Below, piece by piece: positions 4,388 to 33,336 of a stretch of DNA of 40,052 nt; the first letter of the stretch is position 1, and the number at the start of each line of letters is the position of its first letter. Source of the stretch: a virus; IMG/VR virus record IMGVR_UViG_3300034073_002465, positions 1-40,052 of that record. One strand, 5' to 3'. Both the position numbers and the translations under genes were made by a program. Under the pieces are notes generated by a model. That model did not search any database and was not told where the DNA came from. It worked only from the letters and a program-made list of their open reading frames with translations.

Positions 4388-4770
4388 GCACACTCACATC
4401 TGAAATCAACCAGTTCCAGGACGAAGTCCGCGAGGGCTACGTGCCGGAGAAAAAGACAGCGCCGGACTACGGGGAGCCGTGGAAACCAGCGTATTCATTC
4501 TACATCTCAGACCGTGATGATGACGTTGCTGTCGATGACTCAACGGTCAGGGGATTTCACGAATGGAAACAACGTGACCGCGCCATCGAATGCGTCAACG
4601 CCTGCGCGGGAATGACTGATCCGTCTGCCGAGATTCAGGCGATGCGGGAGGCGATCAAAGAAATCTACGCCGAAGCCGACGCCTACGCGGACGGCGCTTC
4701 AGATGCCTCCGCACATGATAAGTTCTGCAACGAGATTGCCGCCAAACTGAAGCCCTTCATCAAGCCATGA
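4384..4770 (+). CDS. Conserved phage hypothetical protein, 128 aa
   Basis: Residues about 30-95 contain the pattern 'GEPWKPAYSFYISD...RDRAIECVNACAGMTDPSAEIQAMREAI'. The 'R.ECVNACAG(M/I)' phrase recurs in many short phage proteins of unknown function. The C-terminal part is Ala-rich helix. It overlaps upstream and downstream genes by ATGA. No enzyme residues identified. Confidence 0.75.
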   Translation: MSTLTSEINQFQDEVREGYVPEKKTAPDYGEPWKPAYSFYISDRDDDVAVDDSTVRGFHEWKQRDRAIECVNACAGMTDPSAEIQAMREAIKEIYAEADAYADGASDASAHDKFCNEIAAKLKPFIKP

Positions 4771-5249
4771 GCACAACACCACGACCAACACCGGAGACCG
4801 ATGCAGCAACCTTTGATATTCCACACCACGGGGCAGACGGCACCGGATCGCGGGTTGCTGTTGTTCATTATCAAGTCGCCCGTCGCCTCGAACGCGAGCG
4901 CGACGAGGCGAGAGAATACGCCGAACGCTGCAAGCAAGGCTGCATCAAGCTGTCTTATGCCATCGACCGCATCGACTACGCGTGCGGAGAACCAAATGAG
5001 ATGGAAGTCTCAGACTATGCCATACATCAAAACGAGGATCGCGTCGTTCAGCGTGTGAAGGAAAAGCTCGAAGCTCTCCACCATCTCACCTGGACTCCCA
5101 TCTCCGAGCGCAAGCCGACTATCGAAGACGCCAACGAGTTTGAAGATGTCGAATGGAGCGATGGGAAAGACATCTGGCAGAGCTCATACTATCTGCCAAA
5201 CAGCAACCAGCACTACGCAACCCATTGGAGAAGGATCACATTGCCATGA
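4767..5249 (+). CDS. Phage protein with a DUF551-like C-terminus, 160 aa
   Basis: It has three parts. An N-terminal 'TPRPTPETDAATF' start leads into a charged helix ('ARRLERERDEAREYAERCKQGC', about 38-60). A middle linker follows. The C-terminal domain (about 108-160) opens 'TWTPISERKPT' and closes 'ATHWRRITLP', the pattern of DUF551 domains ('W.P..ERLP...THW...P'), whose function is unknown. ATGA overlaps join it to both neighbours. Confidence 0.75.
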   Translation: MSTTPRPTPETDAATFDIPHHGADGTGSRVAVVHYQVARRLERERDEAREYAERCKQGCIKLSYAIDRIDYACGEPNEMEVSDYAIHQNEDRVVQRVKEKLEALHHLTWTPISERKPTIEDANEFEDVEWSDGKDIWQSSYYLPNSNQHYATHWRRITLP

Positions 5250-5594: not shown

Positions 5595-6008
5595 ATGAAC
5601 ACAGAACAAACCGCACAACAGCTCCGCCTCGCCGCCACGATCCTCGAAACCGGGCACCCGTGGGAGTATCAACCAGACCACTACAACTGGAAACTCAGCC
5701 AAGGGCACTGCCCACTGTTCGCTATTGAGCAAAGATTTCCTATCCGCCTCGCCCTCGCAGTTCCACCAGACGGTCGCGATCTTCGCAACCCGGACGATCT
5801 CACCGCCGATCAGGTGGGTGTTGGGTGGAGGCTGACATTGGCGGGTGAGGAGCCGCACGATGAGGCTGAGAGATGGAGCCTTATGCCTGCTCATGGAAAA
5901 AACGTGAGTCTGCCGTTGGTTTGCCTTACAACCATCAAGACACCTATCGCGTCCCGCTCTCCGCCCCATGGCCTGAGTCTCCAAAGCCAGACCCATACGC
6001 TGAGCTGA
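5595..6008 (+). CDS. Phage hypothetical protein, frame 0 of a -1 frameshifted gene
   Basis: The 137-residue zero-frame product starts at ATG 5595. It opens 'MNTEQTAQQLRLAATILETGHPWEYQ' and includes 'GVGWRLTLAGEEP' near residue 75. At residues 102-103 (Lys-Asn) it reads the heptamer A AAA AAC (5897-5903). Beyond that, frame 0 loses family-like character (Ser/Pro/Thr-rich) and ends at 6008. A -1 slip would continue into the 5873-6820 frame, giving a 408-residue protein whose join ('...TYRVPLSAPWPE') fits the phage family I recall. Confidence 0.65.
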   Translation: MNTEQTAQQLRLAATILETGHPWEYQPDHYNWKLSQGHCPLFAIEQRFPIRLALAVPPDGRDLRNPDDLTADQVGVGWRLTLAGEEPHDEAERWSLMPAHGKNVSLPLVCLTTIKTPIASRSPPHGLSLQSQTHTLS

Positions 6009-6820
6009 AGGCGGCGCAGGCGGAGGGGAAGATGATACAAGTCCGCCCCAAAAACCGCACCGAAGACTGGCATGAGGAGTGGCAAGATTGCGTCCCAGAA
6101 TGGCTCGACGGCTACGAATACCGCATCAAGCCCGAACCCACCTTCCAGCTCCCTCCAGCGCCTCCAGGCATGCGCTGGCACCGCGAGGACGGATGGCAAG
6201 AGGGCGATCTGCCGCAGGGGTGGAGGCCATTGGTGGATGGTGAAAGAGGTCCTCCGACAGGCGAGATAAAGAGGCGCGGCAAATGGGAAACGCTGGATGC
6301 ACCAAACGATATTCCTGGATTGCCTGCGAGAATTAGAACCTGTCATTGCCGCACCCGTCGCCCCCTGGCCTTCGAGCACGCTGGCAAGACTTGGACATGG
6401 CACCGCCCGGGCGATCCGATGCCGTGTGATGGGGATGCGCGGATTCACTATTTGACGAAAGAAGTAGAACACTCTGGAGTTTACAGCGTTGCCTTTGCGC
6501 AAAGAGCCGATTCCCGCAACTGGGACTCCACTTCTTCTATCATCGGCTGGCGCTACGCAGACGAAAAGAAAACCGTCCCGCTCGGACCTGAGGACGTGCC
6601 TCCGGGGAGTGTGTTTCGCTATTCAGACTCAGACGACAAAGCAGCGTGGCAAGAGCCTCACGAGATAGACTATGAAGGCGCGGCGTTTCACAACGGAGGC
6701 GGCAGCGTTATGTGGAAAAAATGGGACTACTTAGCCAAGGATTTTCAAATCAACCGCTCCATCCCGCTCACCGGCAAATGGGACGCCAGCGCCTGGGAAC
6801 CTTGCAGCAAACAAATCTGA
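5873..6820 (+). CDS. Phage hypothetical protein, -1 frame part of the frameshifted gene
   Basis: The frame opens at ATG 5873, but sense-looking sequence starts at about 5903. It contains 'TYRVPLSAPWPESPKPDPYAELKAAQAEGKMIQ', then 'WLDGYEYRIKPEP', 'GMRWHREDGWQEGDLP' and several Trp-rich segments to residue 315. These short blocks ('...W....RYRIKP') recur in phage hypothetical proteins. It may be translated alone from 5873, but its N-terminal residues before the slip site look non-native. The likelier product is the 408-aa fusion with the frame starting at 5595. Function unknown. Confidence 0.65.
   Translation: MEPYACSWKKRESAVGLPYNHQDTYRVPLSAPWPESPKPDPYAELKAAQAEGKMIQVRPKNRTEDWHEEWQDCVPEWLDGYEYRIKPEPTFQLPPAPPGMRWHREDGWQEGDLPQGWRPLVDGERGPPTGEIKRRGKWETLDAPNDIPGLPARIRTCHCRTRRPLAFEHAGKTWTWHRPGDPMPCDGDARIHYLTKEVEHSGVYSVAFAQRADSRNWDSTSSIIGWRYADEKKTVPLGPEDVPPGSVFRYSDSDDKAAWQEPHEIDYEGAAFHNGGGSVMWKKWDYLAKDFQINRSIPLTGKWDASAWEPCSKQI
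5897..5903 (+). promoter_or_regulatory. A AAA AAC slippery heptamer (-1 frameshift site)
   Basis: The zero frame reads GGA AAA AAC, exactly X XXY YYZ. Slipping one base back gives AAA AAA then CGT, the frame of 5873-6820. Only a weak downstream stem (GGTT/AACC) is visible. A one-base homopolymer error in the assembly would produce the same picture. Confidence 0.55.
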
Positions 6821-7794: not shown

Positions 7795-8595
7795 ATGGGA
7801 ACGCCGATTGATTTCTACACGGTCAGCACGCCTAACCCGGCTGAGATCGCGTTCTACATCACGGTGGACGCCAACCAGCTCAACCCGGGCAACGTGCCTG
7901 CGGTGGGAACTCCTTACAAACGGATCAACAACTCGTTCGTCAACCCGAGGGTCAATGAGTGCGGTTTCGGTGACTACGTGTACACCTACATGGCCCCCTC
8001 AGGCGACTCGTTGCAGTTGTTCTTCGGCAAGCCCAAGACCCAGGTCGAGAAGAACACGCCGTTTCGCACGGTGTACTCGACCAGGTATTACCCGTGGCCC
8101 CCGGTGCTGGAGGACCTGCGCATCCTCAAGACGACGGCCTTCCCGCAGTCGGTCTGGAACGGCACTGCCACGGTCACAGCGCCGCGCTACTTCCCGCGCT
8201 ACCGCTACCGCCCGACGCCGAGCATCAACTCGGTCATCAAGATCGAGCAGTTCCTTGCGCCCACGCCCTACGACGGCCAGGCGTTGATCCACCCGCAGCC
8301 GACGCCCACGGAGGTCAGCGGCTACTATCTCGGCATGTCGGTCAGCTTCCCCAAGTGCCTGCACCCCAAGATCGTGCTCGATGAGAACATCCCGGGCGCG
8401 GTCGTGGTGGAGGGCCAGGGCACCGTGGACGTGCCGCGCACCAACAGCTCCACCAAGCAGGTGTTCCCGGCGACCAACTTCCTCGACTGGGCTCCTTTCA
8501 TCCTGGAGGATCAGGTGCAGCCGGTCAGCGGCTTGTTCCTGCGCGAACGTGTCACCATCTACCCGCCGTTCCGGCCGCAGCCGATTGAGAGATGA
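7795..8595 (+). CDS. Putative virion structural protein, 266 aa
   Basis: Not recognised by family. The composition is that of a soluble beta-rich structural protein: many Pro, Tyr, Asn and Thr residues, few Lys, and no signal peptide or membrane helix. Aromatic-rich stretches occur at about 95-130 ('STRYYPWPPVLEDLR', 'PRYFPRYRYRP'). It sits between the beta-domain protein and a 57-aa gene of similar style. Its stop overlaps the first unit of the tandem repeat at 8591-8685. Confidence 0.55.
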   Translation: MGTPIDFYTVSTPNPAEIAFYITVDANQLNPGNVPAVGTPYKRINNSFVNPRVNECGFGDYVYTYMAPSGDSLQLFFGKPKTQVEKNTPFRTVYSTRYYPWPPVLEDLRILKTTAFPQSVWNGTATVTAPRYFPRYRYRPTPSINSVIKIEQFLAPTPYDGQALIHPQPTPTEVSGYYLGMSVSFPKCLHPKIVLDENIPGAVVVEGQGTVDVPRTNSSTKQVFPATNFLDWAPFILEDQVQPVSGLFLRERVTIYPPFRPQPIER

Positions 8596-8685
8596 AACCC
8601 GCTCGCCACGGCTCCTCGCTTCGCTCGATGAAACCCGCTCGCCACGGCTCCTCGCTTCGCTCGATGAAACCCGCTCGCTTCGCTC
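8591..8685. repeat. 36-bp tandem repeat (two full units plus a shortened third)
   Basis: Units 8591-8626 and 8627-8662 are identical. The third (8663-8685) lacks 13 internal bases. Each begins GATGAAACCCGCTCG and ends CGCTTCGCTC, with an internal GAGCGAAGCGAGG half-palindrome on the other strand. The block starts on the stop codon of one structural gene and ends at the ATG of the next. Confidence 0.85.
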
Positions 8686-13829: not shown

Positions 13830-14750
13830 ATGCCGCCCCCTTCAGTCACCCCAGCGATGCGTGAGTTCGGTTTTGGAGCCAAGCGCGTGCTCCAGCCTTA
13901 CCAGAACCCGGAGGCCAAGGACTTCTTCCGTGCTTTCCGCCCCTCGCAGGAAGAACTGGACAACCCGTTCCTGTCGTCCCCCTATGCCCGGCAGCAAGAC
14001 GCCCTGGTGGCGCAGGAGGACGTGGTCAACCAGCAGCTTGCGGCCGAGCAGGCGCAGATGATGGCGGACCAGCGCAAGGCCAGCCGTCTGGAGCAAGTCT
14101 ATGAGGCTGAAGACCTCGCCAACGAGGCGCTGGCCTCCGGTGTGCCGCCCGACGAGGTGATCCAGCGGTTTCCCCGGCTGGCGCAGTCTCCGAGTTTCAG
14201 CAATTACATGCAGCAGGCACGCGAGGTGCGCCCGGCGCAGAAGACGCTGGCTCCGCATTTTCGTCAAAGCCTCAAGAGCCCGACGGCACGAACCTACTTT
14301 GACCGTCATTTTCAAACCACAGGAGACGCCACGCAGGCTTACGATTTGGCGCAGGCGGACGAAGAGCAGGACGACATCCGGCTCGAACTCGTAAAGAACG
14401 GAGTCCCCGTTGAGATAGCTGAGGCCAAAGTCTGGACCCCATTGGCGGCACAAGCGGCCATTCAGCAGTTCAGCCGAAAAACGGAGGACGACCCGAACGA
14501 ACTGGCCTACAAGAAGACGGTGGACAAGTATTTCGCCGATCTGGCGAACTCTGCTGCCATGGCTATTGATGGAGAAGAAAAGAGCACGGAGCAGATCAAG
14601 GCGGACCTTGACCGCATCCGCAGTATTTTCTATCCGCAGGCCGCGCCAGCGCCGGTCTCAACGGTCAAGCCACCCACTGCCACTAAAGCCACGTCCAAGG
14701 TCAAATCCCTGGCGGAACGCTACGGCATCCTCAAACCTAAACAGCCATGA
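13830..14750 (+). CDS. Helical internal-virion-like protein, 306 aa
   Basis: Mostly charged alpha-helix: Gln/Glu/Ala-rich heptads at about 60-105 ('VVNQQLAAEQAQMMADQRKASRLEQVYEAEDLANEAL') and further helices to about 260, then a Pro/Ala/Thr linker and a basic end. No membrane or catalytic motif. It starts five bases after the previous stop and overlaps the giant gene by ATGA, so it is probably co-translated with it. Internal core or ejection protein is a reasonable guess from context. Confidence 0.55.
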   Translation: MPPPSVTPAMREFGFGAKRVLQPYQNPEAKDFFRAFRPSQEELDNPFLSSPYARQQDALVAQEDVVNQQLAAEQAQMMADQRKASRLEQVYEAEDLANEALASGVPPDEVIQRFPRLAQSPSFSNYMQQAREVRPAQKTLAPHFRQSLKSPTARTYFDRHFQTTGDATQAYDLAQADEEQDDIRLELVKNGVPVEIAEAKVWTPLAAQAAIQQFSRKTEDDPNELAYKKTVDKYFADLANSAAMAIDGEEKSTEQIKADLDRIRSIFYPQAAPAPVSTVKPPTATKATSKVKSLAERYGILKPKQP

Positions 14751-17700
14751 GCCCTTGGGAAGACATCGAGGCTGATCCCGAGTTTGGCACGCTGACTCCT
14801 CAGGAGAAGGTGTCCCTGTTCGACGATTGGCACAAGAACACCGTCAACAGCTTTGCTGAGATCGACCCGGAAGAAGTGGACCTTCAAGGTCTCAAAGGAT
14901 TCATGGCGTCAGGTCAGGTTAAGCGCCGGGAGCTTCTTGGGGAACCTGTGGACCCGGACCAGATCACCCAGCAGTACCTGACGGGGTTGACGGAGCGCAA
15001 CAAATCCCAGAAGCAGATGCTGGCGGATTACGACGCTTTGGAGAAGGCCCGGTTTAACTTGCAAGACGCAACTCTCCAGAAAGGGGTTACCTCCGCAGGA
15101 GATCGGGGCATGATCATCAGCCCCAAAGTTCAAGAGATTCTCGGTAAACCAAAGCAACAAGCGGAAAAGGAGTTTGAAATCGCTCGCAGCAAGTTCACCC
15201 CCGAACTGGAGCAGCAGGCCCGGGAGGCACGTGAGGCCATGCGTGGAGAACGCCCGGTGGCAGTTCTCGGCAGCGACATCTACACCGACCCGTCGCTGAC
15301 ACTGGACAAAGAGGAGTACCGCAGAGCGGTAAACGGAACCTCAGCTTCGCCAGAAGCCAAGATGCTCGCGTTGGCGGATTTCTCTTCTCGCCGGGACGAG
15401 TTCGCGAAAAACGCTCTTCGTGCGTTTCGAGTTGCGGGTGAGGCACCGATTCCAGGCATGGAGTCTTTCGCGTCGTGGGAGGCGAAGCAACCTGAAGAGA
15501 CACGTGTCAAATCTCCAGAAAGCAAAGCCCTCGAATACCTCCGTCAGATGCGTGGACGAGAAGGTTACCGTAAACTGATCAGCGCCATTGGCACCGGGGC
15601 TGTTCAAGGTGGGGCGGACGTGGCATCTCAGGCCGTTGGCACGGCTGCCATGATCACCGGAGACCGAGGGCTTGCTCAAAAAGCGGGGGAAGTTCAAAAA
15701 GGCGCGGAAGCGTTGTCTGAAGTCCAAAAGCTCGAAGGAGACATGTCTGCCACAGGTGCCACCACGGCTGGCGGCGTGGCACGTCTCGGAGTTGGCATGG
15801 CTCCCGCAATCGGAGCAGGCCTTCTCACCGGAGGCAGTCTTCCGGCTGCCGCGTTGGCGGCTGGAGCACAGACCGCAGGCGCTCAATTCCCATCGACGTA
15901 CAACGCGATGCTGGAACAGGGGAAAAGTGAAGAGGAGGCACTACGTGCCTCTCGCGGAGCCGCCCTCATGTCCGGGGCCGTGACTTCAGCATTGACCGCA
16001 CTTGGGGGAACGTCTGGCGTGGAAGCGTTGATCCGCCGCAGCGGTGAAGGGTTTGCCCGTGGGCGCGTTGCCTCCATCCTGCTTGGGTCAATCAAAGAAA
16101 TACCCGAAGAATTGGCTGATGAGGCTGCCAGTCAGGTTATTGAGTCGAGCCTGACCAACCCGGACAAGCCGGTGTCCCAAGTGGTCGATGAGTTTCTTGG
16201 GCAGGCCCCCGACCTTGCCTTGCAAGTCGGACTCCTTGGAGGAGCTGGTGAAGCCTTCTCTTCTGGAGGAAAGACACCGCCCACATCCCAGCCCACGGAA
16301 GAAACCGAAGAGCCGGTGGTTCTTGGGCGCACGGTGCAGCAGGTGCTCGACGAAGCCGACGCCGTCAGCGCCCGGGCAGTCGTGCAAGCTGAGGAGGCAG
16401 GGTCGCCTTTGCTGGCGCAGGCCATCGCAGAACAGACGGCTGCCACGGTTCCCGAGGCTCAAGCGGAAACCGCAGAGCCAAGCGGACAGACGGAACCAGA
16501 GGTAGCCGCCGAAATCCTTCCCGAAAAATCTCCCGCAGTCAACGCCGTTACCACAGAAGAACAAGAAACCCTCCCCCTGTTGCCACAGGAGGAGGGTCAG
16601 GCCGGTGAGTCGCGAACTCCGGCAGAAGGGTCGATTCCTGCCGTTACCGCAGAGAAAATGCCTGATACTTCAGAAGTGTCAAGTGTTGCCCCTTCTGCCG
16701 GAGTTGAGCGTAATCGGGCGTTGATCGCTCAAGCCGCAACCACAAACGCCGGACGTGCCCAGGTGTCAGCCAACGAGTACATCCAGAAAGCGGCAGCAGC
16801 ACCGCAGCCGAACCTTCCTCCAATCACCACGCAAGGTGGAGAGGTGGAAGTCCAAGCCGCGCCTGAGCGTACGGTCGAACAGAATCCGATTGCCGCGATG
16901 GCCGCACAAGCCGCCGCCAAAGCCCGAGGAGAGGTCAAGGAAGTCAGCGCCCCTCTGGCACGGATGTTACAGCCTTCTCCGCCGTCGCCGTCAGCTCCGT
17001 CTGGCTTGGGCGCAGGTGCCGCTACAACTCCGCAAGGAGCCATTGAAAGTCCCACAGCACCAGCGACGGCGGAGGACATCGCCGACCGCATCAACGCGTC
17101 GTCCTTGTCTCCTGCGACGACCTATCCATCTCTGGTGCAGGACATCAAGAGTCTCACGGAAGGCAGGCCAGCACGGTTGCAGGAAGTCGCCGACGCCCTG
17201 TTCGAGCAACCCATGCAGCGCCCGACTGCCGAGAAAATCGCACGCCGCCTGCTCGACGAAAATGCCGCCGAACGCGAGGTCACGGCTTCGCGTGATCGCC
17301 GGGTCGCCCGTGAGATGATCGGCGAGGAAGAGAACCAGCGTGGCGGCGAAGCGCCGGTCAGCGATGACAAGGCCCCCTTGGAAAAGGGCGAGTTCGTCGC
17401 GTGGCAGGACGAGAACGGCGCGATGCAGGAAGGCGTTCTCACCAAGATCAGCGCCGGTCGAAACAACCTTGGCGAACCGATGTCGGAGGTTACCTTGGAA
17501 ACCAGCGAGGTCGTGCAGGTGCCACGGCGAGAACTGAGGCCTATGGCGTCCATGAGGCCGGATGCGCGTGATGCCGAATACCTCGCCGCCGTTGAAGCTG
17601 GCGACATGGCGAAGGCGCAGCGGATGGTGGATGAGGCGGCGAAGGCGGCGGGGTATAACGTGGGGCCGGTGTATCATCACGGTGGGTTCGACATCCAGGA

Positions 17701-20700
17701 AAACGCCGTCCCAGACACATCTCGTGGCTTTCACATGGGCACCCGGCAAGCCGCTGAAGAGAGGGCTTTTGGCAAACCTGTCGATGATTTTATAGCGGAG
17801 GCCGAAGTAACGTACGATGAAGGCCTTGGTGCCTGGTTTTGGTCATCACAAGGAGTGGACAGTTACGACGTGGTCGATGAGGACGGGTTCAGTAGCGAAG
17901 AGAGGGCTCGCCGCAGCTTAGAAGAATATGCCTCCCAAGAGGATTTCAGTGGTTCTGACATCGAAGACCTTGGTAAACTGACCGCTGCGTATTTGAGGGT
18001 GTCTAACCCGTTGGTAGTGGCTGACCAAAAAGCGGACTGGGACGGCGTGATTAAGCGAGCGGTGTCTGGCGGCTATGACACCGTGCAGTATCGCAATGAC
18101 TTCGAGGATAAAGGGTCAACTTCATACATAGCCCTGCAAGAAGGGCAGATCAAATCCGCCGATCCAGTCACCTACGACGACGCGGGGAACGTGATCCCGC
18201 TCTCACAGCGTTTCCAGACGACCTCGCCGGACATCCGTTTCAGCAAGAAACCGACGAACCCAGTTCGCGACGCCCGTGCCGCAGCGATCAAGTCACTGCG
18301 CGGTCACCTCGGAGAAGAAGTCTCGGTCGGTGTGTCCGCCGTGGACGGCATCAACGCGATGACCAGCCTTCAAGGTGCCGTGCCTGGAGTGCAGAAGGCA
18401 TGGATCGGCACGCGTGAGGATTTTCTTGCGGATGAATCCCTCGGCCGTGCCTTCCCCGGCATCCGCCGCGAACTGGAGAGCCCGCGAGGAGATCAACTGG
18501 AAGGTCTGTTCGACGGCGGCCGGGCGTTCGTGTTCATCAACAACGTCGGCGTTTACGAAGGCGATGTCCGTGTCGCCAAGGAACAGTCCGAACTGACTGG
18601 AGAAGAGGTTACTCCGCAACAGGCAGCGGTGCAGCGCGTCATCACTCATGAAGGGCTGGTGCATCGCGGGTTCTATGCTCTCGACAAGGACACCCGGCGT
18701 GCGCTGTTCCAGTGGGGCGCTCAGAACATCTACGAAGCCGAGATGGACGCGATGGCCGAGGAATACGGCTACGCTGACGACTGGCGCACCAACGAACGGT
18801 CCCGCGAGTGGATCATGGAGGAGATTCTGGCGAAGAAGATCGAGCGCCTCAAGGCCCCGCCGAAGTCAGGCCCGCTCAAGGCCCTGTGGGACATCCTTGT
18901 CTCGTTGTGGCGAAAGCTCACGGGCAGCGTGCAGGAGGTCACCCTCAAGGACATCCAGGATGTCGCCAAGGTGCTGCGCACCGCGTTGGAGCTGTCCGAG
19001 AACAACGTCGAGACGCGCAACGGGATGCCGATCCGGGTGGAGGTAGCCAAAGGTTCCCTCCGCCCCCGTTTCACCAGCCCGCTTGACGCCACGCTCTCGG
19101 ACACTGCGAAGGCCCTGCGCCTCATGCGCGACGGCCCACCCGCAACCCCTGTGGACCTGCAACAAGCCTACGCCACGGCCGTGCGTGGCAAGTCCTCGGC
19201 CATGGTGTCGCTCGACGACCTGTTCGCCGCCGCCAAGGCATCCGCTCCGTCCCTGACCGAGGCTGAATTCGGACAGCAGGTGCAGAACCTCTACAACGAC
19301 AACGGAGCCTACGTGGAGTCCGCCGAGTCGCCTGCTGTGATGAAGCAGTCCGCCGACCGCTACAACGTCCGCTCGTCTCAAGGGATTCCGGCGAGTTACG
19401 TGATGATCCTGGAGACCGGACGCCCGATGGCGTCCATGAGGCCGGAGACACCCTTCTACTCGAAACTGTCCCGCGTCGTATCGGATAAGATGCCGAATCG
19501 CGCCGATGTCGCGACCATCAAGGGCATCATCACGAACCCGCAGACAGGCATCAAGGCAGAGGAACTGAAGTGGAGCGGGATCGTGCCGTGGCTTGATGCT
19601 CAAGAGGGCATGGTCACGAAACAGGCCGTGCTCGACTACCTCGCCAGCGACGGCGCGGTGAGGCTGGAGGAGGTGCGGATGGGTGGACAAGATCGAACCA
19701 TCAAACCGGGCGCTGTTTTTGGTGATTACCGCGTGATTGATGATGCTGGCGACTTGGCTCTTGAAAGAGTGGACGATGGTTCTTTTGTTCGTTCTGGCAC
19801 CGCTGAACAACTAGCGGATTACTTGGAAATAGGCACTGGCGAAAGTGGAGCAGGAACCAAATACGCCCAATACCAACTACCCGGCAGCGAGAACTATCGC
19901 GAGGTGGTGCTGGCGATGCCGGTTGAAAGACGTTCGATGACAGAAGCAGCGGCTGTTTATTACAACACTTTTGTTCGTCGTGGGGGCGAGCCTCAATGGG
20001 CTGAATTGCCAGAAAGTCGGCGCTTGCAGATCATCACGGAAACGCCCGCAGAAGCATTCAACGAACCACCTGAATACACCTCCAGCCACTTCCCCGACGT
20101 GCCGAACTACGTCGCGCACATGCGGCTGAACGACCGCACGGACGCCGAGGGGCAGCCGGGGACGTTCATCGAGGAAATCCAGTCCGATCGCCATCAGCAG
20201 GGACGGGAGAAGGGGTATCAGGGACAACGTGACCGCTCTCTAAGCGTGAAATGGGATGCCAATCTTCAAACCTGGAAAGTTCTCAACGAAGAGGGTCGAA
20301 TGGTTGGGGGATTCCAAACCGAAGAAGCGGCAAAAGCCGCCGCTAATAAGTTTGCGTCAGGCATCCCCGACGCCCCTTTCCGAACAACCTGGCCGCTGCA
20401 AATGTTCAAGCGCGCCCTCGCGGACGCGGTGGCGGCGGGCAAGCAGTGGATCGGCTGGACGACCGGCGAGACGCAGGCGGAGCGGTATGATTTGAGCAGG
20501 CAGGTGGACAAGATCGAAGTTTACCCTTTGGAAAAATCACCGGGCATGGTGGCTATCACAGCCTACAAAGATGGCCGCCAAGCCATTCGGCAGGATGTCG
20601 CACGTGGTAGCATGGCGGATTTGATCGGCAAAGAAGCTGCTCAAAAAGCCGAGCAACAGATTCAACAGAACAACTTTGCCACCCTCGAAGGAGACGGCCT

Positions 20701-23700
20701 CAAAGTCGGCGGCGAGGGCATGAAGGGCTTTTACGACACCATCCTGCCGAAGGAAATCGGCAAGTATGTGAAACAGTGGGGAGCTGGCGTGGTGAAGGGG
20801 GAAGCAGTGACTCGAAAGGAATCGTTTGAAGAGTCTCCTATTTCTTTTGATGATTCCCCTGTTCTTGTGCGCCAACAAACCACCCCCATCTGGCGCGTGG
20901 ACATCACGCCGTCGATGCGCGAGTCGATCCAGAAGGAGGGCCAGCCTAAATTCAGCCTCCGTCCTGACGCCGCACGACGCCTCAACCGTGCCGTCTGGGA
21001 GGCTCAGGAAGCCTCCGGCCCGATCAAGGATTCCGAGCAGACGCCACTCAAGGACTACCCGGTGCATTCGTTCGCGCAACAGTCCGGTAAGAGCCGCACG
21101 GACGTGGCCATTCAGGTCGTGGACGAGCTGCTCAAGTCTGGTGTGCCCGTCAACGGACTTGTCGATGCCATCAACAGCTACGAGCTGCACCGCCAGCTTG
21201 GCATCGAGCGCGATCCTGACATGCTCGGCATCTTGCTGGCCGAGGCCATGCTCCGGGGCGACCCCAACGCGTTCAAGGCGCATCAAGATATTCGTTCCCG
21301 CATTGGACGTGCTCAAGGGACTGGAGCCATCCTGCACAAGGACCCGAGGTACCAACACCTGTTCTTGCTCGAAGGCATGAAGGACGAGCAAATGCAGCAG
21401 GCCCGCGACATCCTCAACGCCAACGCGCCGATGAACGCGGACGAGGTGAGCCGGTTGGACGCGGAGGCGGGGCGGACGGCTGCGGCAGAGGATGCCGGGG
21501 CAGTCCAAGATGCCCTGGAAGAAGACCTTCTGGAGATCGGTGAGAAAGGACTTTCTCCCAAAGAGCGCACGCTGTGGGAGAAGGCAAAGTATCTTGTTGC
21601 CCGTATCGGTTACCTCCTAAAACTCGGATCAGGAGATGCCAAGCCATCACTACGTTTTGAGTTTCCTGACTCCGAGAAGCAGGCCCTCTCAAAACTCTCG
21701 GCGGACGAGAGGCAGAAAGAGTTGCAGAGGACGCGTGCAGAACTTCGCGCCACTTTGGGCGAATTGCTCGGGCAGCGCAAGCCACGTAAAGTGGCTGGCG
21801 GTGTCGAGACCATCGAAGGTGACCTTACCACCCGTGCGGTTGCTGACATGGTCCAACGCATGCAGGAACGCCTCAACATCCCGGTGGACACTGCCACGGC
21901 GATTGACGCCTTGACGACCACAGGAAACCTCAAAGGTCAGTTTGAAAACTTCATCTCCGACTCGCTGATCTCAAAAGTGAAGTCGGCCATGACGCCGAAG
22001 CAGGCCCCGGTCAAAAACCTGAACAGCGTCATCAGGCAGATCACCAGCATCCTTGCGGACAACCTCAACTTGCCAAAGGCGCAGACGGCCAAAGAGTCTT
22101 TGGGGGAACGTGCTCTTGACACCTTCGGACGTGTCCGGTCCAATGAACAGATGATCCGGGAAGCGTGGGAACGTTCCCGTGAAGGCATCCGGCAGTATCT
22201 TGCCGAACGCGCCGTCGAGGGCAAGGAAGGTCTGACCGAGGAAGAGGCCGCAGAGATTGAAGAGGCGGTTGATGCACAGCTTGACGCCATCGCGTCCTCG
22301 GTGCCAGCTCGCATGTGGGCGCGTGGCCAGGCTTACAGCCTGATCCGGGACGCTCTGGAAGGCTCCAAATTTGGCACCAACGAGGACATCTTGCGTGACC
22401 CGCAAGCTGCTTTGAAAACAGTCCAGGACCTCCTCAACTCCGAGGTGGGCAAGATCGGCAACGTGGACCCGGCACGCTGGGACAGTGACCAAGCCTACAT
22501 TGTGGCGGCGTTCAATTCGTTGGTGGCCGATCTCAAGGAGCGCAAGGCCAAAGCGGAGGCACGTCGGGCAGGCAAGACCCGCTCAGGGTTGATGACTGGA
22601 TCGGATAAAAAGACTCTGACATCGCTTATCGAGCAGGCTCGCAAACGCTCTGGGGACAAGGCTCCGCTCCTGCCTGACAGCGCCACCTGGACGAAGATTT
22701 TCAGCGGGTCGCCGCAGTCGCAGGAGGCGAAGGCGAGAGAGATGCTGGACTACATGAAGGCGGACCCGCTGCTCGCGAATCTCACGGCTGCCGAGCAACA
22801 GCAGCTTGCGGACATGTTCGCACGTCGCTGGGAGAAGAAGCGCAAAGAACTCCTGGAGGCCAAAGTCGCTTCCATCCTCAAAGCGCGAAACGCCACCCCC
22901 AAAGGCAAGAACGCCGCCAAGGACGCGGTGCCGAAGTTCATCCAGGCGATCAACCGTGGTGAGCTGACCAACGATGTCATTGCCGAGGAGATCGCAGAAA
23001 AGTTTGGTTTCGAGAAACTCACCGAGGGCGAGAAGAAAACGCTCGAACGGTTGTCCCGGGAACTCCAGGAACCCAACCTTCCGCAGCACGAGAAAACCGC
23101 CAAGATCGACGAGATGGCGAAGATCATCGCGAAGAAGACCCGCATGTCGATGGCTGAGATTTTGTCAGCGTGGTGGGTGACCTCCGTGCTCTCCGGGCCG
23201 CGCACAGCCTTCACCATCGGGCTTGCCGCCTCCAACGGTGCCTTCGAGGTGCTGGGGCACGCGGTGTCCACGGTGCTCAACGCCAACTGGAACGGTCGTC
23301 GTGCGGAGGGTCTCGCCGCCACAGGTCAGGCGCTCACCAACTACTTCAAGTCGTGGCCGCGTGCCATCCAGCTCGCGTGGCAGTACGTCCTGACAGGTGA
23401 CAAGAAATTGCTCTCCGCAATGGACCCGGCCTACTCGCAGTTCTTTGAGACAGGTCGCAACAACCCGCTGTCGGTGGGATGGAGACTGTCGCAGTCCAAA
23501 AACCCCGTGGCTCGTGCCACCGGCCGGTTCATGCATTTCTTCGAGAAATTGCTCTCCGCGCTCGACTTGTTCACGGCGACCACCACGCGTCACGGCATGC
23601 TTCCGATCTCCTACTACCTGAACCAGAAGGTGTACGACAAGGCACGTGCCGCGAGTGAGACCGATCTGGCAAACTACCGGAAGAAGGTGATCGACTTGTG

Positions 23701-25105
23701 GTGGGGAGGCAAAGAGCCGACGACCGGAGCCGAGCAGGCCTTGGTGACACGCCAGTCTATCAACATGATGGAGGAGCAGCTCGCCAAGTACGCCAACGTT
23801 CTTGAAGACGCCGGGTTCGCTGCCGCACAGGCTGCCATGACACTGACGCCGGAAGGCCTTGGGGGTCAGTTCTATCAGGCGGTGCGCAGCGTCGCCAACA
23901 AGGCGGAAAGGTCAGCAGAGAAGGCGGTTCGTGAAGCTGAAAGGCTGGACGGCAAGGACCACGGCCCCATTGAACGCAACACGCGCAAGGCACTGGCCTA
24001 TCTGTACCGTTTCCTCGCCTACCAGATGCTCAACGTCGCAGGTCTGCGCTTCGCCCGGTTCGCGGGCAACAAACTCAACCAGTCCCTCGGGTTCATTCCA
24101 GGCCTCGGACTGTTGCGCAAGTTCGAGAAAGACTACGCGGGTCCGATGAAGAACCAGGCGATCATGCGCAACCAAGCCATCGGAGCCATGATGGCGATGG
24201 TCGGATACAACGTCCTCAAGGCCATCGGCGATGAACCTGACGACGACAAGCGTGGCTGGGGCATCGAAGGCTCATGGAAGAACCTCACGCCAGACCAGAT
24301 CAAGCAGCTTCAGGCCGCAGGTCGCAAGCAGTACACCATCCACATCGGCGAACAGTCCTACAACTATGCCAACTGGCCGGTGTCCTCGGTGCTCGCCGCC
24401 ATCGGCACCATGGCTGACCGCATCAAATACTCCCCGGACAAGTGGAAGGAAACCTCGACCCTCGACAAGATCGCAACGGGCGCGTGGGCGGCTTCCACAG
24501 CCACCATGGACGCCTCCTCGCTGTCACAACTGGCGGAGGTGTTCGGCAGCAACATTCACACCCGTGACCCGGTCGAGGCCAGCGCAAAATGGGCGTCCCG
24601 GGTGTTCGGCAACTACGCTGGCGGCATGATCCCACGCGTCTTCAAGGACGCCGACATGATCCTGGACGGCAAGATGGGCAAGTACGACGGCTGGGAAAAC
24701 TTCGGGAAGGAGATTCCCGTCTATCGTCGCTACGTCGGTGGTCCGTTGCTCGACATCTTCGGCAAACAGGTCGAAGTGTCACGCACCCCGTGGAGCCGTG
24801 AGTTTCAGGTGCAGCCGCCCGAGCGTGAATATCGCCTGCTGGGCCAGCTCAACAGCAACGACTTGTGGCTGACACCCGCCAATCCAGGCGGACGCCGCGT
24901 AGGCCGTGGCAAACGGTCCCGCGAGATGACCGACGCCGAGCAGAAGCGTTACGTGACCCTCGTGGGCGACGGCTACCGTAAAGTTGTGTTGAAGTTTGGC
25001 GACCGTCTCGCCAAGATGGACCGCGAAGGGGCCAAAGATTTACTCGGCAAGCTGACCGCGCAGGTCCGTGACCGTGCCGAACGACAAGCCGTGACACAAC
25101 AATGA
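14747..25105 (+). CDS. Giant polyvalent virion protein, 3452 aa
   Basis: Probably an internal protein carried in the particle and delivered to the host. Regions by residue: 275-430, Gly/Ala-rich hydrophobic segments that could insert in membrane; 510-770, Pro/Glu/Ala linker; 973-1168, ADP-ribosyltransferase-like domain ('VYHHGGFD', 'GYDTVQYRNDF', 'YIALQEGQIKSADPVT', 'SPDIRFSKK'); 1301-1306, HExxxH metallopeptidase-like motif with Glu 1358/1359; 1566-2073, a large polyvalent module ('AQYQLPGSENYREV', 'IEEIQSDRHQQGREKG', 'GEGMKGFYD'); 2100-2800, helical; 2807-2841 and 3083-3231, hydrophobic C-terminal part. Domain names come from recalled phage polyvalent proteins. No T7-type RNA polymerase motif is seen. 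It is far longer than most phage proteins. Confidence 0.85.
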   Translation: MSPWEDIEADPEFGTLTPQEKVSLFDDWHKNTVNSFAEIDPEEVDLQGLKGFMASGQVKRRELLGEPVDPDQITQQYLTGLTERNKSQKQMLADYDALEKARFNLQDATLQKGVTSAGDRGMIISPKVQEILGKPKQQAEKEFEIARSKFTPELEQQAREAREAMRGERPVAVLGSDIYTDPSLTLDKEEYRRAVNGTSASPEAKMLALADFSSRRDEFAKNALRAFRVAGEAPIPGMESFASWEAKQPEETRVKSPESKALEYLRQMRGREGYRKLISAIGTGAVQGGADVASQAVGTAAMITGDRGLAQKAGEVQKGAEALSEVQKLEGDMSATGATTAGGVARLGVGMAPAIGAGLLTGGSLPAAALAAGAQTAGAQFPSTYNAMLEQGKSEEEALRASRGAALMSGAVTSALTALGGTSGVEALIRRSGEGFARGRVASILLGSIKEIPEELADEAASQVIESSLTNPDKPVSQVVDEFLGQAPDLALQVGLLGGAGEAFSSGGKTPPTSQPTEETEEPVVLGRTVQQVLDEADAVSARAVVQAEEAGSPLLAQAIAEQTAATVPEAQAETAEPSGQTEPEVAAEILPEKSPAVNAVTTEEQETLPLLPQEEGQAGESRTPAEGSIPAVTAEKMPDTSEVSSVAPSAGVERNRALIAQAATTNAGRAQVSANEYIQKAAAAPQPNLPPITTQGGEVEVQAAPERTVEQNPIAAMAAQAAAKARGEVKEVSAPLARMLQPSPPSPSAPSGLGAGAATTPQGAIESPTAPATAEDIADRINASSLSPATTYPSLVQDIKSLTEGRPARLQEVADALFEQPMQRPTAEKIARRLLDENAAEREVTASRDRRVAREMIGEEENQRGGEAPVSDDKAPLEKGEFVAWQDENGAMQEGVLTKISAGRNNLGEPMSEVTLETSEVVQVPRRELRPMASMRPDARDAEYLAAVEAGDMAKAQRMVDEAAKAAGYNVGPVYHHGGFDIQENAVPDTSRGFHMGTRQAAEERAFGKPVDDFIAEAEVTYDEGLGAWFWSSQGVDSYDVVDEDGFSSEERARRSLEEYASQEDFSGSDIEDLGKLTAAYLRVSNPLVVADQKADWDGVIKRAVSGGYDTVQYRNDFEDKGSTSYIALQEGQIKSADPVTYDDAGNVIPLSQRFQTTSPDIRFSKKPTNPVRDARAAAIKSLRGHLGEEVSVGVSAVDGINAMTSLQGAVPGVQKAWIGTREDFLADESLGRAFPGIRRELESPRGDQLEGLFDGGRAFVFINNVGVYEGDVRVAKEQSELTGEEVTPQQAAVQRVITHEGLVHRGFYALDKDTRRALFQWGAQNIYEAEMDAMAEEYGYADDWRTNERSREWIMEEILAKKIERLKAPPKSGPLKALWDILVSLWRKLTGSVQEVTLKDIQDVAKVLRTALELSENNVETRNGMPIRVEVAKGSLRPRFTSPLDATLSDTAKALRLMRDGPPATPVDLQQAYATAVRGKSSAMVSLDDLFAAAKASAPSLTEAEFGQQVQNLYNDNGAYVESAESPAVMKQSADRYNVRSSQGIPASYVMILETGRPMASMRPETPFYSKLSRVVSDKMPNRADVATIKGIITNPQTGIKAEELKWSGIVPWLDAQEGMVTKQAVLDYLASDGAVRLEEVRMGGQDRTIKPGAVFGDYRVIDDAGDLALERVDDGSFVRSGTAEQLADYLEIGTGESGAGTKYAQYQLPGSENYREVVLAMPVERRSMTEAAAVYYNTFVRRGGEPQWAELPESRRLQIITETPAEAFNEPPEYTSSHFPDVPNYVAHMRLNDRTDAEGQPGTFIEEIQSDRHQQGREKGYQGQRDRSLSVKWDANLQTWKVLNEEGRMVGGFQTEEAAKAAANKFASGIPDAPFRTTWPLQMFKRALADAVAAGKQWIGWTTGETQAERYDLSRQVDKIEVYPLEKSPGMVAITAYKDGRQAIRQDVARGSMADLIGKEAAQKAEQQIQQNNFATLEGDGLKVGGEGMKGFYDTILPKEIGKYVKQWGAGVVKGEAVTRKESFEESPISFDDSPVLVRQQTTPIWRVDITPSMRESIQKEGQPKFSLRPDAARRLNRAVWEAQEASGPIKDSEQTPLKDYPVHSFAQQSGKSRTDVAIQVVDELLKSGVPVNGLVDAINSYELHRQLGIERDPDMLGILLAEAMLRGDPNAFKAHQDIRSRIGRAQGTGAILHKDPRYQHLFLLEGMKDEQMQQARDILNANAPMNADEVSRLDAEAGRTAAAEDAGAVQDALEEDLLEIGEKGLSPKERTLWEKAKYLVARIGYLLKLGSGDAKPSLRFEFPDSEKQALSKLSADERQKELQRTRAELRATLGELLGQRKPRKVAGGVETIEGDLTTRAVADMVQRMQERLNIPVDTATAIDALTTTGNLKGQFENFISDSLISKVKSAMTPKQAPVKNLNSVIRQITSILADNLNLPKAQTAKESLGERALDTFGRVRSNEQMIREAWERSREGIRQYLAERAVEGKEGLTEEEAAEIEEAVDAQLDAIASSVPARMWARGQAYSLIRDALEGSKFGTNEDILRDPQAALKTVQDLLNSEVGKIGNVDPARWDSDQAYIVAAFNSLVADLKERKAKAEARRAGKTRSGLMTGSDKKTLTSLIEQARKRSGDKAPLLPDSATWTKIFSGSPQSQEAKAREMLDYMKADPLLANLTAAEQQQLADMFARRWEKKRKELLEAKVASILKARNATPKGKNAAKDAVPKFIQAINRGELTNDVIAEEIAEKFGFEKLTEGEKKTLERLSRELQEPNLPQHEKTAKIDEMAKIIAKKTRMSMAEILSAWWVTSVLSGPRTAFTIGLAASNGAFEVLGHAVSTVLNANWNGRRAEGLAATGQALTNYFKSWPRAIQLAWQYVLTGDKKLLSAMDPAYSQFFETGRNNPLSVGWRLSQSKNPVARATGRFMHFFEKLLSALDLFTATTTRHGMLPISYYLNQKVYDKARAASETDLANYRKKVIDLWWGGKEPTTGAEQALVTRQSINMMEEQLAKYANVLEDAGFAAAQAAMTLTPEGLGGQFYQAVRSVANKAERSAEKAVREAERLDGKDHGPIERNTRKALAYLYRFLAYQMLNVAGLRFARFAGNKLNQSLGFIPGLGLLRKFEKDYAGPMKNQAIMRNQAIGAMMAMVGYNVLKAIGDEPDDDKRGWGIEGSWKNLTPDQIKQLQAAGRKQYTIHIGEQSYNYANWPVSSVLAAIGTMADRIKYSPDKWKETSTLDKIATGAWAASTATMDASSLSQLAEVFGSNIHTRDPVEASAKWASRVFGNYAGGMIPRVFKDADMILDGKMGKYDGWENFGKEIPVYRRYVGGPLLDIFGKQVEVSRTPWSREFQVQPPEREYRLLGQLNSNDLWLTPANPGGRRVGRGKRSREMTDAEQKRYVTLVGDGYRKVVLKFGDRLAKMDREGAKDLLGKLTAQVRDRAERQAVTQQ
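17543..17562 (+). repeat. 20-bp repeat at a domain boundary in the giant gene, copy 1
   Basis: Encodes MASMRP between residues about 933 and 938, just before the ART-like region. The identical 20 bases recur at 19427-19446 before the next module. Confidence 0.75.
19427..19446 (+). repeat. 20-bp repeat at a domain boundary in the giant gene, copy 2
   Basis: Identical to 17543-17562 and in the same reading frame (MASMRP), directly before the module that begins 'ETPFYSKLSR'. It suggests the linker was duplicated when domains were added. Confidence 0.75.
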
Positions 25106-28691: not shown

Positions 28692-28707
28692 AACGTGGAA
28701 GCACGTT
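28692..28707. other. Palindromic hairpin at the radical SAM stop codon
   Basis: AACGTG-GAAG-CACGTT, a perfect 6-bp stem overlapping the stop codon of the radical SAM gene. Its CACGTT half resembles the GTTAACGTG repeats at 2899-2926 and 3053-3061. It could be a weak transcription stop or protein site. Confidence 0.35.
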
Positions 28708-29905
28708 AAATGAAGTTCACGTGTTTCGGCAAGCTCCCCACAGGCTGTGGGTCAGCCCCTTTCCAAATGGCATCCAGCGCACGGTTCTGTGCCCCGAAGA
28801 CGCATTTTTGACAGTGGACTAAGGGGTCAATGAGAGAGCGGACAGGCCTCCCATAAAGTTCATGAATCGTGTCCCAACGGCCAATGACGTACACTTGGCC
28901 TCCTTGTGAGCGGTTGGCTTGGTCAAGCAGCGTGACCGAGTCGCAGGGCGTTACGTCACCCGAAGGCCACAACACGGGGTGCGAGTAGCCAAGCAGGCAG
29001 CAGGTGTGCGGTGAAGGCGGTTTGTACTGCACCATGATGCGCGGGTCAACCTCCAACGCCATCTGTTCTAGCTCGGTGCAACGCTCAGGGATTTTCTGAA
29101 CTTCATAGCAGTTGGGTAACGCCCGGATGTATGTGAAGGGTTTGGTGCTGAGCAGTTCCTTCAACTTCTGTTTGATGAATGGCAGGCGGTCTCTGCCCCA
29201 GATGACCCGGGTTTCTTCTTCACCTGCGAGCAACGGAGTTTGCAAGTCTTCTGGGCGGCTGACTTTGCCATGTCGGTCTTTGGGGTCTAGGTACTGATCG
29301 TGGTAAACCCAACTTCCCCCTAAAGCCGTTAGGTCTGGATTGATGTCAGGCACCTCCACTTCTTCCCCATGGTCCCAAGCACTCAGGGAGATTCGCAGCC
29401 ACGTCAGTTTGTCCAAGGTTTCAGGACTGACGGTTTTCCACGATTTGCGCCCGCAAGGGTACTCCACCATGTTTTTGAGACCATTGCTGATCAGGCCAAT
29501 CTGCAACCCTTTACCATGAAGTAGGCTGACCAAGTCGTTGAAATCAGCGCCACAGGATTTGTCCCGAAAGAGGATCGGATTTCCACCACCGCTCAGGATG
29601 ACCGCTTTCAAACCAAGAGGGATTAACTGGTCAACATACACTTCGATCTGGTGCATGGTGAGTGAGTCTCCTTGACGGTTGGCTGTAGAGCAGAAGGCAC
29701 ATTTATGCTGGCAGGTGTCTGAAACAAATATGCCGCTCACTTTTGGAACACCGCGACCTTGATGGAGCCCGTCGATGATGTCACGGTGCCATGGTATTTT
29801 TGATGAAGTGCTGGTGAACTCGTTCAAGAGTTCTTTCATGGATTCGGGGGTCTCGTGATTACACGAGGCATTTCCACCGGGAAGCGGTTCAAGAGAAGGG
29901 TTCAT
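28706..29905 (-). CDS. Radical SAM enzyme with C-terminal Cys cluster, 399 aa
   Basis: C65-x3-C69-x2-C72 in 'SDTCQHKCAFCS' binds the 4Fe-4S cluster that cleaves S-adenosylmethionine. 'AVILSGGGNP' corresponds to the GGE motif, and strands 'GLQIGLISNG' and 'LTWLRISLSAW' fit the partial TIM barrel. C-terminal cysteines ('HTCCLLGYSHPVLWPSGDVTPCDS', later 'CQKCVFG') resemble a SPASM/Twitch auxiliary cluster used by peptide- or sugar-modifying enzymes. ATG 29905 overlaps the upstream stop as ATGA. The gene looks less GC-rich than its neighbours, suggesting separate acquisition. The substrate is unknown; not QueE by length or context. Confidence 0.8.
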   Translation of the reverse strand: MNPSLEPLPGGNASCNHETPESMKELLNEFTSTSSKIPWHRDIIDGLHQGRGVPKVSGIFVSDTCQHKCAFCSTANRQGDSLTMHQIEVYVDQLIPLGLKAVILSGGGNPILFRDKSCGADFNDLVSLLHGKGLQIGLISNGLKNMVEYPCGRKSWKTVSPETLDKLTWLRISLSAWDHGEEVEVPDINPDLTALGGSWVYHDQYLDPKDRHGKVSRPEDLQTPLLAGEEETRVIWGRDRLPFIKQKLKELLSTKPFTYIRALPNCYEVQKIPERCTELEQMALEVDPRIMVQYKPPSPHTCCLLGYSHPVLWPSGDVTPCDSVTLLDQANRSQGGQVYVIGRWDTIHELYGRPVRSLIDPLVHCQKCVFGAQNRALDAIWKGADPQPVGSLPKHVNFI

Positions 29906-30489
29906 AGTGCTTTCTGTGCCCACATTTCGAGTGAGAATTTGCGACGGTTGAGGTGCTGGGCCATCTCCCAGAAAGAAGGGACGCCGTAGTCACCGACGTT
30001 TCCCTTTCCGACGTTGTGGACGAGGTGGGAAGGAAACCCCGCACGGACGAAGTGCGCCCACAAGGAGTCTTCCGTGAATATCTGGGCGTGCTGATCGAAC
30101 CAGAGGGCGGCCTCGAACCACGTCGGGATCGGGTTCGGCGGGTCACTCACCTCAAAGAGTTCCGGCCAGTTTTCATTGCGGTCGTCCGGGTACACGCTGC
30201 GGAAGTAGCTGGCGTCGGGAACGCTGACCAGGAAAACGCCCCCAGGCTTGAGCACACGCAGCACTTCGCGCATCACCTTCACGGCCTCACGGCAGTCCAT
30301 GTGCTCCAGGACGTGGCTGCACAGACACCCGTCGAAAGTGTTGTCGTCGAACGGCAGTCTCTGTCGCAGGTCGTGACGGACAAAATTGGGCTCGTTGATC
30401 TCGTGACCACCACCTTCCCAGTTGTCCACGTTGATCCACTTGGAATCTTGGGGCCTTGTGCCTCCGCAGCCTAGGTTGATGATTTTCAC
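29902..30489 (-). CDS. SAM-dependent methyltransferase, Methyltransf_11-like, 195 aa
   Basis: GTG start at 30489, overlapping the upstream stop as GTGA, gives motif I directly at the N-terminus: 'KIINLGCGG' (residues 2-10). Then 'WINVDNWEGG', 'LPFDDNTFDGCLCSHVLEHM' and 'VLRVLKPGGVFLVSVPD', a standard Methyltransf_11 order. Upstream in-frame codons look non-native, supporting the short start. It is one of three methyltransferases in this operon; sugar or small-molecule methylation is likely. Confidence 0.8.
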   Translation of the reverse strand: MKIINLGCGGTRPQDSKWINVDNWEGGGHEINEPNFVRHDLRQRLPFDDNTFDGCLCSHVLEHMDCREAVKVMREVLRVLKPGGVFLVSVPDASYFRSVYPDDRNENWPELFEVSDPPNPIPTWFEAALWFDQHAQIFTEDSLWAHFVRAGFPSHLVHNVGKGNVGDYGVPSFWEMAQHLNRRKFSLEMWAQKAL

Positions 30490-30887
30490 GACAACGTCCT
30501 CTGTTTGAGTTTGTACTGGCGCACCTCGGACTCGTCGGCGATCCCGGCAAGCAGGTTCTGCGTTCCCACCGAAGCCTTGGGCGACCCAATCTTGATGAGC
30601 TTGCACAAGGTGACCTCACAACCATACAGGCGCTCCATCAGTTTGACTGCGATAGTGTCTTTCACCTGAACTGCCGTTTCAGCAGCTTCCAAGGTGATCG
30701 CGTTGAGGTCCAGCTGCTCACCGAGGCCCTTCATGCGCTCGACCACGGCGTCGTAGGCGGATTGATAGTCTTCGTAGGCTTTCCCAAGGAACTTGTGGTC
30801 CTCGAAGAACGTGGACCCATGCGTTTCAATGTGCGCACGGTGCGCGATGAACTGCATGGTGCGGAGATAAACGGCGATGGCTTTCAT
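30486..30887 (-). CDS. Dps/ferritin-like protein, 133 aa
   Basis: Helical protein with the ferroxidase ligands of Dps in exact spacing: H19, H31 (12 apart), D46 (15 further) and E50 (4 further), with Gly at H+5 and Phe at H+8 as in Dps ('HIETHGSTFFEDH', 'AYDAVVERM'). Dps cages oxidise and store iron and protect DNA. At 133 residues it is shorter than usual (about 165), and its C-terminal helix is atypical ('KLIKIGSPKASVGTQNLLAGIADESEVRQYKLKQR'), so cage assembly is unsure. It sits between methyltransferase genes with 4-base overlaps and next but one to an Fe-S enzyme. Confidence 0.75.
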   Translation of the reverse strand: MKAIAVYLRTMQFIAHRAHIETHGSTFFEDHKFLGKAYEDYQSAYDAVVERMKGLGEQLDLNAITLEAAETAVQVKDTIAVKLMERLYGCEVTLCKLIKIGSPKASVGTQNLLAGIADESEVRQYKLKQRTLS

Positions 30888-31606
30888 ACGTGCTCAGTGT
30901 GGTCGAGAAGCGGGGAGTAGTCCAGCCCGGTGATGGCGCTGGCCTCGTCAAAGTGGGCTTTCTGCTGCTCCAGCGTCAGCGGGCGCAGGTCAACGCCGGG
31001 GTTGGGGTAAGGCAGTTCCTGGGAGAACGTGACAAGCCTTCTCGCCTTCTTCCGGATGAAGATGGTGAGTCCGTTGTCGGAGTGCAGGTCGAGGCGCTGC
31101 CAGTCCCTCTCCTTGAACAGGTTGGGCTGGTCCACGAACAACCGGGGTCCGACGCAGTTCTCGACATCGTCAAACGCGACGAACGTGGCTCCGCGCTCCA
31201 CGGCTTTCCAGGTGTCGTTGAGGCATGCCTCATGGCTGTGCCAAGCATCAATGTAAGCAAAGTCCACTGTTTCGGGCCACACTGCGCCATCGTGCGTGTC
31301 GCCATCGTGGAACCGGACCCACTCGCGCACACCGAGGACGGTGAGATTTTCCTCAGCGTGCTGCTTTGGGGTCTTGTCGCCGAGGATTTGCGCATGCTCC
31401 AGGAGAGACCAGTTGTCGATGGCGTGAACGACGCCAAAGTTGTTCTCCTGACACGCCTTCGCCATCCACGCCGCAGACAAGCCCCGGTAGGTGCCGCAAT
31501 CGACAAGGTGGTTCGGCTTGAGGGCGCGGGCGAAACTGTACAGGATTCGCGGAGAGTCGTAGTTCCAGGTGGCGTAAACCTTGTTGACGTTGTCGAAGAA
31601 ACTCAT
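30884..31606 (-). CDS. Class I methyltransferase, Methyltransf_24-like, 240 aa
   Basis: Motif I is 'HLVDCGTYRGLSAAWMA' (about 33-49), the acidic loop 'VVHAIDNWSLLEH', and 'VDFAYIDAWHSHEACLNDTWKAVERGATFVAFDDVENC' (about 114-151) gives the D.WHS and DDV motifs of the family. The C-terminal 60 residues are an extra charged region. Layout matches the plus-strand gene at 11159-11716. ATGA overlaps join it to both neighbours. Substrate unknown; glycan context suggests sugar modification. Confidence 0.75.
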   Translation of the reverse strand: MSFFDNVNKVYATWNYDSPRILYSFARALKPNHLVDCGTYRGLSAAWMAKACQENNFGVVHAIDNWSLLEHAQILGDKTPKQHAEENLTVLGVREWVRFHDGDTHDGAVWPETVDFAYIDAWHSHEACLNDTWKAVERGATFVAFDDVENCVGPRLFVDQPNLFKERDWQRLDLHSDNGLTIFIRKKARRLVTFSQELPYPNPGVDLRPLTLEQQKAHFDEASAITGLDYSPLLDHTEHV

Positions 31607-31839
31607 GCTTGGTGGTCTTGAATCGCTTTCTTGAGCGCCCGCCTTTCCTTCTTGGACATGCGGGTGCGTTTGAGGATGTTGCCGTCAGGCCCCAGTTTGC
31701 GCAAGCTGCGAGTCCGGGGATCGAAGACGTAGGGCGTGCCGTCCGCCGAGACGCCTCCGATGCCGGAGATCGTCTTGATGGGGCGTGGTGAGTCGATGAC
31801 GATGACGATGTCGTTGAGTTCAGAATAATTGGCGGTCAT
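31603..31839 (-). CDS. Hypothetical protein, 78 aa
   Basis: ATG 31839 overlaps the upstream stop as ATGA. The first half is beta-like ('DIVIVIDSPRPIKTISGIGGVSADGTPYVFDPRTRS'). The second half is a strongly basic helix ('LKRTRMSKKERRALKKAIQ'). Not recognised. The basic tail may bind nucleic acid or the next enzyme. Coding status is supported by overlaps on both sides. Confidence 0.6.
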   Translation of the reverse strand: MTANYSELNDIVIVIDSPRPIKTISGIGGVSADGTPYVFDPRTRSLRKLGPDGNILKRTRMSKKERRALKKAIQDHQA

Positions 31840-33286: not shown

Positions 33287-33294
33287 TTCCGTGA

Positions 33295-33324
33295 CATATA
33301 GCCTTGACGGGCCGCCGTGGTCAA
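33295..33324 (-). promoter_or_regulatory. Promoter of the accessory operon, leftward
   Basis: TTGACC (33324-33319), an 18-base spacer and TATATG (33300-33295), ending eight bases before ATG 33286. It overlaps the rightward promoter 33304-33331; the two -35 boxes form a TTGAC-N11-GTCAA inverted repeat. Confidence 0.55.
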
Positions 33325-33331
33325 GCATAAT
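33304..33331 (+). promoter_or_regulatory. Promoter of the 60-aa zinc-finger gene, rightward
   Basis: TTGACG (33304-33309), a 16-base spacer and CATAAT (33326-33331), ending five bases before ATG 33337, so the mRNA would start at or next to the start codon. Confidence 0.55.
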
Positions 33332-33336
33332 TCGGC

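Follow-up and report, generated by a model that had tools for sequence, protein, structure and literature searches.

A canonical A AAA AAC heptamer in a frame-disrupted phage gene as the probable by-product of a small upstream indel

Considering that a perfect slippery heptamer lies where two halves of a phage gene overlap, the 40,052 nt stretch of viral DNA analyzed in the current work (IMG/VR record IMGVR_UViG_3300034073_002465, here named "the window") might be taken to encode a programmed frameshift. Our analysis points instead to an ordinary case: the accessory gene at 5595-6820 has probably undergone a recent, real insertion or deletion within approximately 5877-5893, and the heptamer located just 3' to that region is likely a by-product of the frame change.

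Layout of the two overlapping frames

Frame 0, read from the ATG at 5595, contains an A6 run (5897-5902) as GGA AAA AAC at 5895-5903, and a -1 slip at this position enters the frame of 5903-6820, so that the letters on which a preceding sequence-only reading was founded are confirmed. Frame 0 terminates at a stop codon ending at 6008, while the -1 frame, whose preceding stop ends at 5869, stays open between 5870 and a stop at 6820 and comprises 306 codons when entered at 5903. The corresponding features are as follows.

5595-6008, plus strand: ORF 1, frame 0, 137 amino acids, the N-terminal part of module A
5862-5865, plus strand: GAGG, 7 nt before ATG 5873, a possible start signal that is atypical for this phage
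5870-6008, plus strand: zone open in both frames, 139 nt; any -1 change there would join the ORFs
5873-6820, plus strand: ORF 2, -1 frame, 315 amino acids from ATG 5873, the end of module A and modules B, C and D
5877-5893, plus strand: likeliest frame-change zone, the turn between the conserved Trp codons at 5874-5876 (frame 0) and 5894-5896 (-1 frame), as placed by profile pieces, crossover scans and unguided MAFFT
5894-5905, plus strand: TGG AAA AAA CGT, Trp-Lys-Lys-Arg in the -1 frame; the homologue L014 has TGG AAA AAA CCT in its normal frame
5897-5903, plus strand: heptamer A AAA AAC as read in frame 0, regarded as a side effect of the frame change
5990-6142, plus strand: module B (DPYAELKAAQAEGKMIQ...YRIKP), with a weak phrog_21668 match
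6143-6574, plus strand: module C (PPGMRWHREDGW...WTWHRPGDPMPCDG...IIGWRYAD), bounds approximate
6575-6817, plus strand: module D (VPLGPEDVPPGSVFR...INRSIPLTGKW), bounds approximate

The homology of ORF 1 stops near 5879, its last ~43 codons representing an out-of-frame tail. An X XXY YYZ heptamer is thus present in the zero frame inside the ORF overlap, and its occurrence there is mildly unusual versus chance: canonical heptamers of this kind occur in frame 18 times in the 7547 codons of the genes of the window, so that the 46-codon overlap would be expected to hold ~0.11. There is one occurrence of A AAA AAC itself, and A6 runs are found nine times in the window, two of them within the 5595-6820 gene.

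Homologues covering the site

IMG/VR was searched with each half of the gene and then with small alignments, which allowed retrieval of six distinct homologues from other IMG/VR phages spanning the site (L014, L009, L003, L005, L040 and L043). All six consist of a single uninterrupted ORF across the site; among them, neither a split homologue nor an in-frame slippery heptamer at this position was found. The separate-gene arrangement considered by the sequence-only reading is therefore seen in none of these relatives, and its proposal that joining the ORFs leads into TYRVPLSAPWPE and reunites parts of one ancestral phage protein is borne out by them. Judging from sequence, ORF 1 and ORF 2 are the halves of one ancestral gene.

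L014 carries four modules in the A-B-C-D order of the window, namely module A (TAQQLRLAA..NPDNLTAEQVG..TYRLPLSTPWPE), module B (DPYAELK..YRIKP), module C (PPGMxWHREDGW..WTWHRPGDPMPC..GWRY) and module D (LGPEDVPPGSVFR..INRSIPLTGKW). Other relatives contain module subsets or other orders (A-C-D, A-B-HTH, C-B-D and C-B), which indicates a shuffled modular family. This phage protein family of at least four modules, whose orders and combinations vary, is represented by L014, L009, L003, L005, L015, L022, L025, L040, L043 and positions 5595-6820 of the window. A Pfam search returned no match for modules A-D, and Pfam and PHROGs gave weak matches or none for the window protein. Bacterial genomes and named phages yielded no homologues at the sensitivities used, and an AlphaFold model of L014 (pTM 0.37) had no Foldseek match in PDB or BFVD at E <= 0.001.

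Based on this modularity and on its place among small variable genes, the product is probably a phage accessory protein. Accessory proteins of the Ea22/DUF551 type of lambdoid phages consist of small modules recombined in different orders; the module reordering in the window family is similar, although modules A-D have no Pfam match. Further module shuffling is seen at L006:4001-4372, where the start of module A (MNTEQTAQQLRLAADIIET) is fused to another tail; the final part of this tail (EDANDFADVEWSDGK...ATHWKRI) is similar to that of the window ORF at 4767-5249. Separately, L005:2783-5086 is a terminase-like ORF which, by eye, has an apparent intein-like insert in its nucleotide-binding loop (GHKSC...HNSGKTE).

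Position of the frame change

Ahead of a TYR-PLS strand, the homologues possess a pair of Trp residues at a spacing of four to six positions; L009 lacks the first of these, while the second is present in six of six. In the window, the first Trp (5874-5876) is specified in frame 0 and the second (5894-5896), ahead of the A-run, in the -1 frame. Homology in the -1 frame begins upstream of the heptamer, as TGC TCA TGG AAA AAA (5888-5902), and the decamer TGGAAAAAAC is common to the window and L014, which reads it in frame as Trp-Lys-Lys. An unguided MAFFT alignment of both window ORFs with the homologues placed the -1-frame WKKRE under WKKPT of L014, and the A-runs came to lie opposite each other when the DNA was aligned pairwise with that of L014. 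A seven-sequence DNA alignment, too noisy in the loop, left the A-runs unaligned. When the sequence was shuffled with A6 kept intact, 103 of 5000 shuffles (2%) shared with L014 a word as long as TGGAAAAAAC; the chance of TGG at a given -1 codon is 1.4%.

Profile comparisons gave a similar placement. A profile of four homologues, from which the window was left out, matched the window in two pieces, 5742-5879 in frame 0 (model positions 1-49) and 5888-6040 in the -1 frame (model positions 51-100). When all joins were scanned with a six-homologue profile, nearly all joins at 5867-5894 scored 190-193 bits (lowest 188.5), versus 186-187 at the A-run, and in the six-homologue crossover scan joins upstream of the A-run were better by ~4-6 bits. 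A Trp-anchored profile, aligned by hand, gave upstream joins up to 45.6 versus 37.9 at the A-run (up to 8 bits), and 40.3 versus 36.6 without L014 (~2-4 bits). Overall, joins at 5876-5891 outscore heptamer joins by ~2-8 bits, differences that are modest in a poorly conserved turn.

The length of this turn differs by whole codons among homologues, and in the predicted L014 model (pTM 0.37) it lies within a beta-hairpin of module A. Taken individually these items are modest, but they agree, and they provide moderate support for the frame-0 and -1 homologies meeting at approximately 5877-5893, before the A-run. The assumption that the two frames meet at the heptamer is hence not upheld, the -1 homology having already started at 5888-5894 and the heptamer join scoring lower.

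A recent indel as the favoured explanation

We envisage a modular accessory protein (A-B-C-D), encoded in one frame by other phages, in which a small but real insertion or deletion would have occurred in the length-variable turn between the two Trp-bearing strands of module A, at approximately 5877-5893, so as to place everything downstream in the -1 frame. The A-run would represent an inherited Lys-Lys pair, which following the indel reads A AAA AAC in frame 0. The frame change is presumably a recent mutation, and the full protein would no longer be made in quantity; ORF 2, if translated, may be produced by weak internal initiation or rare slippage. Recent mutation had been listed in the sequence-only reading as an alternative and is favoured here, though its site is probably the upstream turn and not the homopolymer.

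Neither half diverges from the homologues faster than these diverge from each other, a comparison that involves distant relatives only. The -1 part contains no stop in 308 codons, for which the chance is ~4% if it had been neutral since the break at 7% divergence, implying that the break is recent or that the second part is still used. The intact downstream half also fits continued expression, and to that extent counts against an indel.

Alternative explanations

A length change of the A-run itself, arising in the phage population, would join the same frames, homopolymers being prone to indels and this run being situated inside the overlap zone. However, it would leave the second Trp out of frame and would require a chance TGG at the aligned position (at the per-codon and shuffle frequencies given above), and the run, of just 6 bases, is one of the nine A6 runs in the window; we consider this explanation unlikely.

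Gene fission, in which re-initiation or internal initiation at ATG 5873 would yield ORF 2 and the split protein may reassemble, draws on the location of this ATG within the frame-change zone and on GAGG lying 7 nt ahead of it, on the intact ORF 2 with its conserved motifs, and on the free shuffling of modules among relatives. It is nonetheless improbable in our estimation: Shine-Dalgarno (SD) motifs are present at 3 of 19 other listed starts of this phage versus 20% of all ATGs, and A/C-rich stretches precede most of its starts but not 5873. The stop codon of ORF 1 comes 135 nt after the point where ORF 2 begins, which precludes close stop/start coupling; the split would fall inside the predicted beta-hairpin of module A, and no homologue is split. 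Regarding initiation in this phage, the starts at 4118, 4384, 4767, 5595, 6829, 11159, 12847, 13830, 14747 and 25102 are without a Shine-Dalgarno sequence and often A/C-rich upstream (AACACC, CAACC), which suggests that initiation in the host is of a non-SD type.

Programmed -1 ribosomal frameshifting at A AAA AAC, as put forward by the sequence-only reading, would generate the full-length protein beside the short one from a canonical heptamer that sits in the overlap in the appropriate frame, and the downstream frame is intact. Use of A_AAA_AAC by an IS cluster is a proven case without an established stimulator, and the motif shifts at >0.10% in E. coli without stimulators (PMC4066793). Yet joining at the heptamer loses the conserved Trp, at a score 2-8 bits below that of upstream joins, and in L014 the A-run is AAA AAA in frame, which is not slippery in the canonical register. 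Some proven -1 frameshift sites are known that have no downstream hairpin or pseudoknot; here, pseudoknot-free folds 3' of the heptamer are no better than those of shuffles (z -0.41, -0.78 and 0.10). For SD-like stimulators a spacing of 6-17 nt is applied in PMC4066793, and none is found in that range upstream of the heptamer, the nearest such sequence, GGAG (5875-5878), being ~19 nt before the second base of the motif and GAGG (5862-5865) even farther away. Moreover, A_AA.A_AA.C shifts inefficiently in E. coli, yet it is used by IS1-type elements (PMC4066793), so that rare slippage could still occur. With homology switching frame before the A-run, no conserved in-frame slippery site and no stimulator found, the proposal of programmed frameshifting is not sustained, and we regard it as improbable too. 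The same low probability is assigned to "savior" frameshifting, in which a slip at a fortuitous A AAA AAC would restore enough full-length protein for the phage to tolerate the indel, the first half also being made alone. Transcriptional slippage is unlikely with a run of only six A.

A sequencing or assembly error is very unlikely, although the evidence consists of metagenome contigs: the inferred change lies outside a homopolymer, the A-run is of only six bases, and a second contig with different ends (IMGVR_UViG_3300035670_000246, 58,050 bases; probably the same population, possibly the same or pooled reads) is identical to window positions 794-40052, i.e. over 39,259 bases with zero mismatches and with the site included, which makes assembly error unlikely. 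A pattern scan of viral contigs for relatives with other A-run lengths retrieved only this identical contig. A self-match with the same contig also revealed a direct repeat at 8591-8678 (36-base spacing, 52 bases identical). Elsewhere in the window, 14747-25105 is a single ORF of 3452 amino acids covering a quarter of the window, and a minus-strand cluster at 28706-33355 encodes three methyltransferase-like proteins alongside one of the radical SAM type, as well as a product weakly matching glycosyltransferases.

Comparison with known systems and implications

The window resembles X_XX.Z_ZZ.N -1 frameshifting systems (IS1 with A_AA.A_AA.C, dnaX and phage tail assembly genes) in having overlapping ORFs, the second in the -1 frame, and a heptamer in the overlap. 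It differs from them in that its homology switches frame before the heptamer, with no conserved site, significant structure or correctly spaced SD-like element. A frameshift without a conserved site, in one copy among continuous homologues, is taken to be an indel or error, and GeneTack singleton frame-disrupted classes are attributed to indel mutation, pseudogene or sequencing error (PMC3711429). The gene analyzed here is like these singletons, being one disrupted copy among continuous homologues with a transition site that is not conserved; unlike them, its downstream part is without decay, and the second contig argues against sequencing error.

For scans aimed at recoding, the present case is a caution, in that a slippery heptamer, even one that is perfect and correctly framed, may be the by-product of a nearby indel. 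By-product and recoding can be told apart by where homology switches frame, together with the use that relatives make of the same letters. The more useful lead is the protein itself, which belongs to a modular, shuffled phage protein family absent from Pfam.
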